Assembly: GCA_015493215.1 (NCBI GenBank)
Contig: WGDP01000327.1
Coordinates: forward strand, 1 to 45,403
Length of the DNA: 45,403 bases
Origin: Bacteroidales bacterium
Lineage (GTDB): Bacteria > Bacteroidota > Bacteroidia > Bacteroidales > F082
Direction of reading: 5' to 3'
Shown here: positions 25,701-29,847 of the stretch, in pieces
How the letters are laid out: every line of letters begins with the position of its first letter
Position numbering within the stretch: the first letter of the stretch is position 1
Notes under the pieces: generated by a model
Databases searched by the model: none
Seen by the model: only the letters and a program-made list of their open reading frames with translations
Told to the model about the DNA's origin: nothing
Made by a program: the position numbers and the translations under genes

Positions 25701-26870
25701 TTAATAATTTTCCTTAATTATTTGGTCGATAAGCTTGTTAAGCTTTTCAAAAACTTCCTGCTCCGAGCCTGTGCCATCAATGGCGTAGTATTTACTTTGC
25801 TTCCGGTAATAATCAATTACGGGTTTGGTTTTTTGTTTGTATTGCTCCAGGCGGTTTATAATTAACTCTACCGATTTATCGTAAGGACGTGCTCTTTTGG
25901 TTGCAGCACGGGCATTAAGCCGCTTTAAAGCGGTAATGGTATCTATCTCCATCTCTATTACTGCCGAAACTTTCATGTGTTCTTTCATCAAAAGCCCGTC
26001 AAGAATATACGACTGAATCATGGTACGGGGAAAACCTTTAAAGATAAATCCTTTTGAATCAGGGTGATTTCCAATACGCTTTTCAATAAGCTTAATGGGA
26101 ATTTCATCTTGTACAATTTCTCCCTTTTCCATAAAAGGCTCAACCTTTTTACCCAACTCTGTCCCGTTGGCGATTTCCATACGAAGCATTTTTCCGGTGG
26201 AAATATAAACCAGATTATGTTCTTTGGCAATCAGTTGTCCCTGTGTGCCTTTACCCGAGCCGGGTTTTCCCAGCAACACAATATTTGTGTGAACTGTTTT
26301 ACGGTGTTCCTCAATAACCGATGTTATTTGCTCAAAAATTTCATCAATTTCACCCACACCGTTAATTTCATAATATTTACCCCGTTCCTTATAGTAATCG
26401 GCAACAGGAGCAGTTTTGTTATGATACTCCTTTATTCTTACCTTAATAACATCAAGGGTATCATCGCTTCGCCCCGAATCTTTTGCTCTGGCTAACAATC
26501 GCTCGGTTAACACTTCATCCGGAACATTTAAAGCAATCATCATGTCTAATTGGGTATCCAGCTTAAGTAGCAGGCCGTCAAGAATATATGATTGGACTAC
26601 TGTTCGTGGGAAGCCGTCAAATAAGATGCCTTGCTTATCAGACGAATCAACAATGTTTTTTTCAATCATTTGTACTACCAGCTCATCTGAAACGAGTCCT
26701 CCCATTTCGATAACGCCTTTGGCTTCCATCCCCAAAGCTGAACCGGATGCAATTTCCGAACGCAACATGTCGCCGGTAGAAATGTAAGTAAGGTTGTATG
26801 TTTCAAGTAATTTTTTCGATTGAGTTCCCTTACCCGCTCCCGGAGGGCCAAAAAGTGCAATGTTTAGCAT
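25701..26870 (-). CDS. adk: Tandem adenylate kinase fusion with a degenerate second domain
   Basis: A 389-residue protein made of two adenylate kinase domains. Domain 1 (about 1-190) has all main motifs: P-loop GPPGAGKGTQ (8-17), STGDMLR, DGFPRT (85-90), a short LID with SGRSDD and the later Arg in VIKVRI. Domain 2 (about 193-389) keeps P-loop GKPGSGKGTQ (201-210) and its Arg residues, but the Asp of TGDM is Lys (STGKMLR) and the Asp of DGFPRT is Lys (KGFPRT). Those two Asp residues help place magnesium and the nucleotides, so domain 2 may bind nucleotide without normal catalysis. Domain 1 should interconvert ATP + AMP and 2 ADP. It lies 11 nt after hpt, the usual Bacteroidetes neighbour. Confidence 0.93.
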   Translation of the reverse strand: MLNIALFGPPGAGKGTQSKKLLETYNLTYISTGDMLRSEIASGSALGMEAKGVIEMGGLVSDELVVQMIEKNIVDSSDKQGILFDGFPRTVVQSYILDGLLLKLDTQLDMMIALNVPDEVLTERLLARAKDSGRSDDTLDVIKVRIKEYHNKTAPVADYYKERGKYYEINGVGEIDEIFEQITSVIEEHRKTVHTNIVLLGKPGSGKGTQGQLIAKEHNLVYISTGKMLRMEIANGTELGKKVEPFMEKGEIVQDEIPIKLIEKRIGNHPDSKGFIFKGFPRTMIQSYILDGLLMKEHMKVSAVIEMEIDTITALKRLNARAATKRARPYDKSVELIINRLEQYKQKTKPVIDYYRKQSKYYAIDGTGSEQEVFEKLNKLIDQIIKENY

Positions 26871-27453: not shown

Positions 27454-27531
27454 AAAAATATGACAACTACTTTTAACCGGGTTAAAATTTTGTTGTCAAA
27501 CCTTAAATTTTCCAAATTTTATTTCCTTCGG

Positions 27532-27562
27532 TTGCTTTTTGTACTTTTTTTTCGTATCTTTA
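27532..27562 (+). promoter_or_regulatory. Probable promoter of the phosphatase-like gene
   Basis: TTG at 27532-27534, 20 nt, then TATCTTTA at 27555-27562 (seven of the eight positions fit TAnnTTTG). A strong AGGAGG ribosome site follows at 27574-27579, 5 nt before the ATG. Confidence 0.45.
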
Positions 27563-27584
27563 AAATTCAAAAAAGGAGGAAGCT

Positions 27585-28070
27585 ATGAATGTTTTATTTG
27601 TTGATTTACAGAATGTTTGCCGTTCGCCAATGGCAGAAGCAATTTTAAAGAGGAAGTTTTTAGACAATAACATTATCGGATTGGTTGATTCGGCAGGTTT
27701 CGAATCGTTTAATATTAACGAACCACCGGATCCGAGAGCTGTTAATACAGCCGCCGAATACGGGGTGCTTGTTGACGGAAGAGCTAGAATTTTTGTCAAA
27801 GATGATTTTGACATTTACGACAAGATTTATGTAATGGATACCCAAAACTATTGGGATGTAATGGAGCTTACGAGAAACGAAAAAGATAAAGCAAAGGTTG
27901 ATTATTTGCTTAATTTGTTAGAGCCGGGGCTGAACAAAACAGTTCCAAATCCATATAGTTCGGGGGTTGCGGATTGTAAGCAAATTTTCAGGATGCTAAA
28001 CAAAGCAGCTGATAAAATTGTTGAAATGGTAAAACTTGAGGAGGAGAAAAAAGCCGTTGCCAACAATTAA
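27585..28070 (+). CDS. Low-molecular-weight phosphotyrosine phosphatase homologue lacking catalytic residues
   Basis: A 161-residue protein with the LMW-PTP fold signature, but the active-site loop is altered. The family loop is CxxNxCRSP. Here it reads VDLQNVCRSPMAEA, so the nucleophilic Cys is Asp7 (codon GAT), while Cys12 and Arg13 remain. The general-acid loop, normally PDPY/F, is VPNPYSSG, so the acid Asp is Asn122. Both chemical residues of the standard mechanism are missing, so it is probably a pseudophosphatase, a phosphopeptide-binding protein, or an enzyme with different chemistry. The rest of the chain, including the C-terminal helix, is intact and the gene has a strong ribosome site, arguing against simple decay. 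The next gene, threonine dehydratase-like, overlaps its end. Confidence 0.85.
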   Translation: MNVLFVDLQNVCRSPMAEAILKRKFLDNNIIGLVDSAGFESFNINEPPDPRAVNTAAEYGVLVDGRARIFVKDDFDIYDKIYVMDTQNYWDVMELTRNEKDKAKVDYLLNLLEPGLNKTVPNPYSSGVADCKQIFRMLNKAADKIVEMVKLEEEKKAVANN

Positions 28071-29007
28071 AATTCCATCGAAAAAAGAGGTTGTTGAGGC
28101 TCATAATCGTATAAAGCCTTACATTCACCACACACAGGTGCTGACATCGGAAACTTTTAACCGACAGTTCAGCACCCGTTTTTTCTTTAAATGTGAAAAT
28201 TTTCAAAAAGTTGGTGCTTTTAAGTCCAGAGGCGCAGTTAATGCGGTTTTTTCATTGTCGGAAAGCGAGGCTGAAAAAGGTGTGGCCACCCACTCATCGG
28301 GCAACCATGCACAAGCGGTGGCTCGTGCTGCTGCACTGAGGGGAATAAAAGCTTATATTGTGATGCCCGACAATGCACCATCGGTAAAGGTTGATGCAGT
28401 TAAAGGATATGGCGGCATAATAACTTTTTGCAAACCCACTTTGCAAGCCCGTGAAACCAGTTTAAATGAGGTTGTAAAAAAAACAGGTGCTTGTGAAATT
28501 CATCCTTACGACAGATTTGAAATTGTTTGCGGACAGGCTACAGCAGCAAAAGAACTTTTGGAAGATATTCCGAACCTTGATATCATTCTTGCTCCTGTTG
28601 GCGGTGGCGGTTTGCTGGCCGGAACCGCGTTGGCAGCCCGATACTTTGGTAACCAAACAAAAGTTATAGCCTGCGAACCTGCCGGTGCCGACGATGCATT
28701 TCGCTCGTTTAAAGCAGGCAGGATTGTTCCGTCGGAGAACCCCCAAACCATTGCTGACGGCCTCCTTACATCGCTTGGTGTGCTTAACTTTGAAATTATT
28801 AAAAATGAGGTTGCCGATATTGTAACTGTTTCGGAGAAGAGCATTAAACAGGCCATGAAACTGATTTGGGAACGTATGAAAATTATTATTGAACCCTCTT
28901 CGGCAGTTCCCTTTGCGGCGGTTCTGGAAAACAAAGTTGATGTCGAAAACAAAAAGGTTGGAATTATTATCTCAGGCGGCAATGTTGATTTGAAAGCATT
29001 TTTATAA
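28057..29007 (+). CDS. Threonine/serine dehydratase (PLP fold type II)
   Basis: About 316 residues. The PLP lysine is in VGAFKSRGAVNA, the substrate loop is HSSGNHAQAVA, and the cofactor phosphate loop is PVGGGGLLAG. This is the serine racemase / catabolic threonine deaminase family: threonine to 2-oxobutanoate and ammonia, or serine to pyruvate. There is no C-terminal ACT domain, so it is not the isoleucine-inhibited IlvA type. The family also contains serine racemases and the reading cannot separate them. The TTG at 28057 gives MPTIKIPSKKE and has a GAGGAG site upstream; another TTG at 28036 adds seven residues. It overlaps the pseudophosphatase gene by 14 nt, so translation is probably coupled. 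Confidence 0.88.
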   Translation: MPTIKIPSKKEVVEAHNRIKPYIHHTQVLTSETFNRQFSTRFFFKCENFQKVGAFKSRGAVNAVFSLSESEAEKGVATHSSGNHAQAVARAAALRGIKAYIVMPDNAPSVKVDAVKGYGGIITFCKPTLQARETSLNEVVKKTGACEIHPYDRFEIVCGQATAAKELLEDIPNLDIILAPVGGGGLLAGTALAARYFGNQTKVIACEPAGADDAFRSFKAGRIVPSENPQTIADGLLTSLGVLNFEIIKNEVADIVTVSEKSIKQAMKLIWERMKIIIEPSSAVPFAAVLENKVDVENKKVGIIISGGNVDLKAFL

Positions 29008-29088: not shown

Positions 29089-29114
29089 CTCAAATATTTA
29101 ATAAAAAAGAGATT

Positions 29115-29570
29115 ATGAATTTACTTGATAATTTATCAAAACCCTCCAAAGAAGAGCAAAAGGCAGCTATGTTGTCTTACAATGCTCTTGTTGCATCGCT
29201 TAATGAAATAAAAGATAAAAATCCTGAAATAGAAATTGAAGAAACGCAGGAAAGAATAAGAATTCCATTAAACGCTTTAAAGTTATTAGCTGACATTCTG
29301 AAGGAAACAAGCAGGGGAAAGCCGGTTTCCATAGTTCCGGTTGCTACAGAAGTTACAACTCAGGCAGCTGCAGAAATGCTTGGATGTTCAAGGCCACACA
29401 TTGTAAAGCTTCTGGAAACAGGAAAAATTAAATTTACAAAGGTGGGGAAGCATCGCCGAATACGATATGAAGATATTGTTTCATATAAAAAAGAAATGAA
29501 AGCAGAGCAAGAACGTTTAATTAACCAAATAATGAATACAGACGAAAAAACCGGATTGTATGATTCATAG
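29115..29570 (+). CDS. Excisionase-type HTH antitoxin of a PIN toxin
   Basis: About 151 residues. The N-terminal half is a helical region (PSKEEQKAAMLSYNALVASL). The middle-to-C-terminal part is an excisionase/MerR-like helix-turn-helix: VTTQAAAEMLGCSRPHIVKLLETGKIKFTKVGKHRRI... with the YEDIVSYKKEM wing. This is the pattern of antitoxins that sit upstream of PIN-domain toxins. The ATG at 29115 is preferred over 29058, which falls inside the promoter. The PIN-like gene overlaps its end by 11 nt. The protein looks intact although its partner is not. Confidence 0.85.
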   Translation: MNLLDNLSKPSKEEQKAAMLSYNALVASLNEIKDKNPEIEIEETQERIRIPLNALKLLADILKETSRGKPVSIVPVATEVTTQAAAEMLGCSRPHIVKLLETGKIKFTKVGKHRRIRYEDIVSYKKEMKAEQERLINQIMNTDEKTGLYDS

Positions 29571-29847
29571 CGTTCGCTTTAAATGTGTTTTAGACACAAA
29601 TGTTATTTATCCGCTCTGGACAAGAGATTTACTATTGTGGTTCGCATTTTATGACCTCTACACACCAAAATGGAGTAACAATATATTCTCAGAATGGATT
29701 GATGTAAACCAAAGACTATCAATCCTGGCATTTAGAAAACTTGTTTTGAATAAAAAGAATCCACCTTATGACGAATATGATGTTCTGGAAATATTTAGAA
29801 ACAATGGTTTAAAGCGAACAGCAGACTATTTACATTCTTTAATTTGA
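29560..29847 (+). pseudogene. PIN-domain toxin with an internal in-frame deletion
   Basis: Only 95 residues, where PIN toxins of this type have about 180-190. The N-terminus is normal (SVRFKCVLDTNVIYPLWTRDLLLWFA... to WSNNIFSEW) and keeps the first catalytic Asp (12). The C-terminus is also normal for the family (LNKKNPPYDEYDVL, then RNNGLKRTADYL). The roughly 90 residues between, which carry the other metal-binding acids (the PDxxDRH and NxxDF regions), are missing at about residues 48-52. The junction keeps the frame, so a short product could still be made, but it cannot be an active RNase. It may still bind the antitoxin. Confidence 0.8.

Follow-up and report, generated by a model that had tools for sequence, protein, structure and literature searches.

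A probable LMW-PTP-fold pseudophosphatase encoded beside a serine racemase-like gene in Bacteroidales

Pseudophosphatases are already known in folds other than that of the LMW-PTPs. In YwlE, Thr11 selects phosphoarginine, and in the D2 domains of RPTP-gamma and RPTP-zeta the catalytic cysteine is replaced by aspartate. The head-to-toe dimer of RPTP-gamma indicates that an inactive, or nearly inactive, D2 domain can regulate its partner (PMC2638020), and a paper on PRL (PTP4A) and the CNNM transporters describes a phosphatase fold that acts through binding of a partner (PMC12192612). In Etp, Cys13 is the catalytic cysteine and Asp119 an essential acid, a D119A mutant being inactive (PMC3366997). 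A review of pseudophosphatases names no case from the LMW-PTP family (PMC9464862). In the open-access literature that we searched, outside which most subscription papers lie, we found no natural clade of LMW-PTP pseudophosphatases, no pairing of an LMW-PTP with a serine racemase and no paper on the locus described here.

We analyzed a 45,403-nucleotide contig from a Bacteroidales bacterium (WGDP01000327.1, assembly GCA_015493215.1; hereafter the window), in which a gene that we call ptp lies immediately upstream of, and overlaps, a gene for a dehydratase-like enzyme. The features of the locus are as follows:

27531..27562, + strand: possible Bacteroidota-type promoter (GTTG at 27531-27534, 20 bp, TATCTTTA at 27555-27562), by consensus match only
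27574..27579, + strand: AGGAGG, ribosome-binding site of ptp, from the sequence and conserved in the sister species G004
27585..28070, + strand: ptp, LMW-PTP-fold pseudophosphatase gene, by open reading frame, Pfam, phmmer and predicted fold
27597..27629, + strand: P-loop region FVDLQNVCRSP, by sequence and alignment
27603-27605, + strand: codon GAT for Asp7, aligned to the nucleophilic Cys
27609-27611, + strand: codon CAG for Gln9, in place of P-loop Gly9
27618-27620, + strand: codon TGC for Cys12, retained
27621-27623, + strand: codon CGT for Arg13, retained
27948..27950, + strand: codon AAT for Asn122 (NPY for DPY), aligned to the general-acid Asp
28038..28044, + strand: GAGGAGG within ptp, the likely ribosome-binding site of the downstream dehydratase gene
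28057..29007, + strand: serine racemase/threo-3-hydroxyaspartate dehydratase-like PLP enzyme of 316 amino acids, with a PALP domain

The ptp frame (27585-28070) is intact and encodes 161 amino acids plus a stop, its AGGAGG lying 5 nt upstream of the ATG. The element upstream matches the Bacteroidota-type consensus and is possibly a promoter. Pfam LMWPc (PF01451) matched residues 3-144 with a score of 86.1 bits, against a cut-off of 23.2, and AlphaFold2 returned a model (mean pLDDT 95.5, pTM 0.91) that was weaker only at the NPY loop and the C terminus. The solved structures closest to this model are LMW-PTPs, with Z scores of 20-25. By both domain and fold, the protein belongs to the LMW-PTP family.

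Alignment by phmmer with the bovine, human and mouse LMW-PTPs placed Asp7 at the site of the nucleophilic cysteine and Asn122 at that of the general-acid aspartate of the DPY loop; alignment and codons thus confirmed the two replacements named in the original prediction. That prediction had also listed the fold, Cys12, Arg13 and the ribosome-binding site as retained, which was correct (Cys12, Arg13 and Ser14 align with Cys17, Arg18 and Ser19 of mammalian LMW-PTP), but its list was incomplete, a third P-loop substitution, i.e., Gly9 to Gln, having been missed. The protein fails the C-x5-R signature at Asp7 and is without the acid of the DPY loop. The YwlE-type P-loop, with Cys7 and Thr11, is absent as well; position 11 is Val rather than the Thr of YwlE, so the binding of phosphoarginine that had been suggested is unsupported. 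From known chemistry, we judge ptp to be very probably inactive as a phosphatase, because with Cys7 gone there can be no phosphoenzyme, and with Asp122 gone no protonation of the leaving group. The protein retains the predicted fold and, in Asn10, Arg13, Ser14 and Ser36, the framework that binds phosphate, while the Cys-phosphoenzyme mechanism, deprived of both nucleophile and general acid, would be impossible.

Arsenate reductase (ArsC) was rejected as an identity for ptp, which does not combine a P-loop Cys with a redox cysteine pair; Cys7 is absent, and the only cysteines in the chain are Cys12 and Cys131. In the window's genome an ArsC-like protein has a gene of its own (L002), and an intact canonical LMW-PTP (L001) is encoded as well. 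The ArsC-like gene and its neighbor occur at two contig ends (L002 and L004; G000:C96 and C197) with the same protein sequence, which points to an assembly duplicate, a repeat or a strain mixture.

In an independent genome, that of the sister species (G004), ptp is 99% identical at the amino acid level, and codons 7, 9 and 122 match those of the window. Between it and the window's genome (G000) 14 codons differ, with two amino acid differences and a dN/dS of 0.039. In the nearest genus (g12), Asp7 is found in 10 of the 12 ptp copies and Gly7 in the other two; seven of the Asp7 copies lie near the window's ptp, six of them keeping Asp122, and the three that are further off all have Asn122. Close relatives with Cys7, which would have pointed to a recent mutation, were not found: the nearest relatives have Asp7, and Cys7 appears only at about 65% identity or lower. 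Because Asp7 is widespread in g12 and the codons are common to G004, the residue is neither a sequencing error nor recent; the change from Cys to Asp also requires two base substitutions. A decaying pseudogene is ruled out for the window lineage by the dN/dS value, and this lineage is under purifying selection. The protein is thus probably a pseudophosphatase, combining a phosphatase fold without catalytic residues with an intact gene under purifying selection. An intact, selected protein of this kind had been predicted, and the dN/dS, the prevalence of Asp7 in g12 and the repeated losses described below all bear this out. Asp7 holds in G004 and in most of g12, but across the clade the residues vary.

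Orthologues of ptp, with 35-66% identity, were present in about 60 genomes of the same family and in many families of Bacteroidales. Within this clade, Cys7 has been replaced by Asp, Ser or Gly, Asp122 by Asn, His, Cys or Gly, and the second P-loop cysteine, Cys12, by Gly, Ser or Leu. In genus g13, four loci (L054, L055, L063 and L064) keep the catalytic Cys while Cys12 has become Gly (MGNMGRSP, TGNIGRSP). Cys7 and/or Asp122 are missing from 24 of the 60 family orthologues, whereas the second, canonical LMW-PTP of the same family has intact catalytic residues at all 62 loci (Fisher p 2e-9, without correction for kinship). On a tree of 89 rows, made using IQ-TREE with the trait columns left out, 12 catalytic losses were needed (10-15 over 300 bootstraps), with five to nine losses of Cys alone. 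Catalytic residues have thus been lost repeatedly in this Bacteroidales clade, about a dozen times. Asn10, Cys12, Arg13, Ser14, Ser36 and Asp85 are nonetheless kept at 93-100% in the 29 catalytically lost members; relaxation at Cys7 and Asp122 in that group is circular by definition, and only this retention of other residues is informative. Replacement of Gly9 by Glu or Gln goes together with that of Asp122 by Asn (12/14, versus 7/153 otherwise); strong as these raw counts are, the supported branches of the tree hold only three independent pairs.

The tree gave no firm support for a single origin of Asp7, the window's genus (g1) and the main g12 group being monophyletic in 80 of 300 bootstraps and all Asp7 rows in only two; there was at least one gain of Asp7, and probably there were two. 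This history of gain, and the retention of the general acid Asp122 in six of the 12 Asp7 proteins, would suit catalysis that has been altered rather than lost, with Asp7 serving as nucleophile via an acyl-phosphate in HAD-like fashion, or with weak phosphatase activity from another nucleophile; the title of PDB entry 4kk4 states that YwlE C7S can be phosphorylated on Ser. We consider this highly improbable, as other lineages have Ser or Gly in place of Cys7, Asp122 has also gone from the window's ptp and the geometry of the P-loop suits a thiolate. The LMW-PTP fold is also not known to have a HAD-type Mg2+ site, which argues in the same direction.

The best start of the dehydratase gene is a TTG at 28057, giving a 14-nt overlap with ptp, so that the intact frame overlapping a dehydratase gene was as originally described. 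The closest solved structures are serine racemases (6lut, E 5e-104), and the PALP domain is present with its catalytic Lys (Lys56 is invariant). The nearest named models, i.e., BhcB and 3-hydroxyaspartate dehydratase, all scored under their cut-offs, the curated BhcB equivalog NF045641 reaching 445 bits with a cut-off of 550. The enzyme is short and has no regulatory domain of its own. Across Bacteroidales, gene order supports a link between ptp and this enzyme. Of the 167 distinct orthologues, 134 have the dehydratase as their immediate 3' neighbor (median gap 6 nt; overlap in 32/132), and dehydratase sequence, whole or truncated, adjoins ptp on the 3' side in all 60 clade members of the family. 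The dehydratase does not need ptp, because at least seven genomes of the family (G013-G016, G033, G038 and G040) have it but not the clade ptp. We looked for a site in the dehydratase that tracks ptp inactivation and found none, and among the frames listed there was no ptp-dehydratase fusion.

The overlapping frames, and the dehydratase ribosome-binding site within ptp, raise the question of whether ptp might be a relic that has mostly lost its function and whose frame persists via coupled translation of the dehydratase. Lineages with Ser7 have dN/dS values of 0.19-0.30, and their rate of evolution exceeds that of most intact lineages, which makes a degree of relaxation likely. We regard a relic as quite unlikely, given the dN/dS of the window lineage, the full-length frames and conserved core residues of the lost members, and the median gap in relatives, which requires no overlap. 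In addition, full-length ptp of the inactive type has been kept in three genomes in which the dehydratase is lost or truncated, leaving residues 4-104 (101 amino acids) in L017, residues 272-301 (30 amino acids) in L092 and no remnant in L106.

The wider flanks place ptp just downstream of dnaA in 132 of 167 orthologues, and an rsmI-like methyltransferase gene lies downstream in 141/167. The ancestral locus is dnaA-ptp-rsmI across Bacteroidota, with ptp of the active type. Because Owenweeksia, Chitinophaga and Salinimicrobium (L175, L210 and L227) have this cluster without a dehydratase, and with catalytic residues intact, the dehydratase appears to have entered it; in the Bacteroidales lineage a dehydratase-like gene stands between ptp and rsmI. 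A definition of the locus by the dehydratase alone was corrected, since loci without that gene show dnaA upstream and rsmI downstream. Every loss of Cys falls in lineages that have, or once had, the dehydratase, and three losses of the catalytic Asp outside the cluster (L129, L134 and L142) have retained Cys. The LMW-PTP homologues at these three loci (family f76) combine Cys7 with His9 and carry a second His where the acid would be, IPHIADME replacing DPY; their chemistry has possibly changed.

The cluster has come apart in the window's genus. In G000 and G004, ptp and the dehydratase lie beside hpt and adk, with dnaA and the rsmI-like gene on other contigs (C134 and C283 in the window's genome); three other species of the genus, G001, G002 and G003, have dnaA and rsmI, and in them both the clade ptp and the dehydratase went undetected. 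That the two genes are jointly away from the old site, or jointly absent, argues for a functional pair. Elsewhere in the window, 25701-26870 (- strand) encodes a 389-amino-acid protein with two tandem adenylate kinase domains (Pfam ADK, two stretches), and 29103-29847 (+ strand), between the dehydratase and tex, encodes an HTH_17 protein (PF12728) and holds a 95-amino-acid frame without a Pfam match. In G004 (L006) tex follows the dehydratase directly, suggesting that the window has gained these frames by insertion or that G004 has lost them by deletion.

The conserved P-loop frame of the lost members would also be expected if ptp worked in phosphotyrosine signaling rather than on the dehydratase, shielding or competing for phosphosites that the genome's BY-kinase generates, in the manner of STYX, with the canonical LMW-PTP paralogue turning these sites over. 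The window's genome encodes both that intact paralogue and a BY-kinase-type protein (C346; TIGR01007, 174.8 bits, above cut-off), and relatives with Ser7 or Gly7 resemble substrate-trap mutants. This explanation seems unlikely to us. With an Asp carboxylate at its base, the anion pocket should disfavor phosphate; phosphotyrosine binding is less likely than in the Ser7 and Gly7 relatives because Asp7, beside Arg13, probably fills the anion site. Moreover, seven Asp7 genomes of g12 gave a single LMW-PTP match each, so that no canonical partner was detected, and gene linkage favors the dehydratase over a kinase.

The explanation that we prefer, and hold with about as much confidence as doubt, is that ptp is a pseudophosphatase whose retention reflects a role other than catalysis; as gene order suggests, it most likely binds or regulates the dehydratase. 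By gene order and tree, the ancestor of the protein was a phosphatase of the active type, its gene lying between dnaA and the rsmI-like gene; once the dehydratase had, as it appears, entered between ptp and rsmI, the catalytic residues were lost many times and the protein was retained. It may be a co-translated partner of the dehydratase that binds the enzyme itself, one of its phospho-forms or one of its ligands, and such binding would tune the activity, stability or assembly of the enzyme. In the pocket, Asp7 probably pairs with Arg13, mimicking a bound oxyanion. The retained P-loop frame fits a binding role, and the dehydratase is the partner best supported by gene order, although that order could simply have been inherited with the dnaA locus, the two genes being functionally unconnected. 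Also counting against such a role are the genomes in which either gene stands without an intact other, the lack of a tracking site or a fusion, and the faster evolution of the Ser7 lineages. More tentatively, it is possible that in Bacteroidales the LMW-PTP of the dnaA locus became a non-catalytic, regulatory subunit of a serine racemase-like enzyme about a dozen times, with its pocket recurrently rebuilt (Cys7 becoming Asp, Ser or Gly, and Gly9 becoming Glu or Gln in company with the Asp122-to-Asn change). If true, this would be an enzyme family caught repeatedly switching from phosphatase to regulator.

Since the catalytic residues went missing about a dozen times while sister lineages stayed intact, the active and inactive types of a single protein are open to direct comparison against a shared genomic partner. 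The course and the causes of an enzyme's conversion into a regulator thereby become testable. The locus points to possible control of an enzyme of the D-serine or 3-hydroxyaspartate type. Automatic annotation will label such pseudophosphatases as tyrosine phosphatases.

Compared with the LMW-PTP family (PF01451; bovine and human ACP1, Escherichia coli Wzb and Etp, Vibrio cholerae 4lrq), ptp has the same fold over its whole chain, the P-loop frame NxCRSP, Ser36 and the PY of the DPY loop, but its nucleophilic Cys, acid Asp and Gly9 are replaced. As in STYX, MK-STYX and other pseudophosphatases, the catalytic Cys is replaced while the fold and the Arg are kept under selection; unlike ptp, the known examples that we found are eukaryotic, with classical PTP or dual-specificity folds. 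PRL differs in that it retains its Cys and has a transporter as partner. As with the D2 domains of RPTP-gamma and RPTP-zeta, ptp is a retained phosphatase domain of the inactive type, although those domains belong to an unrelated fold lineage and lie within a tandem receptor, whereas ptp is separately encoded.
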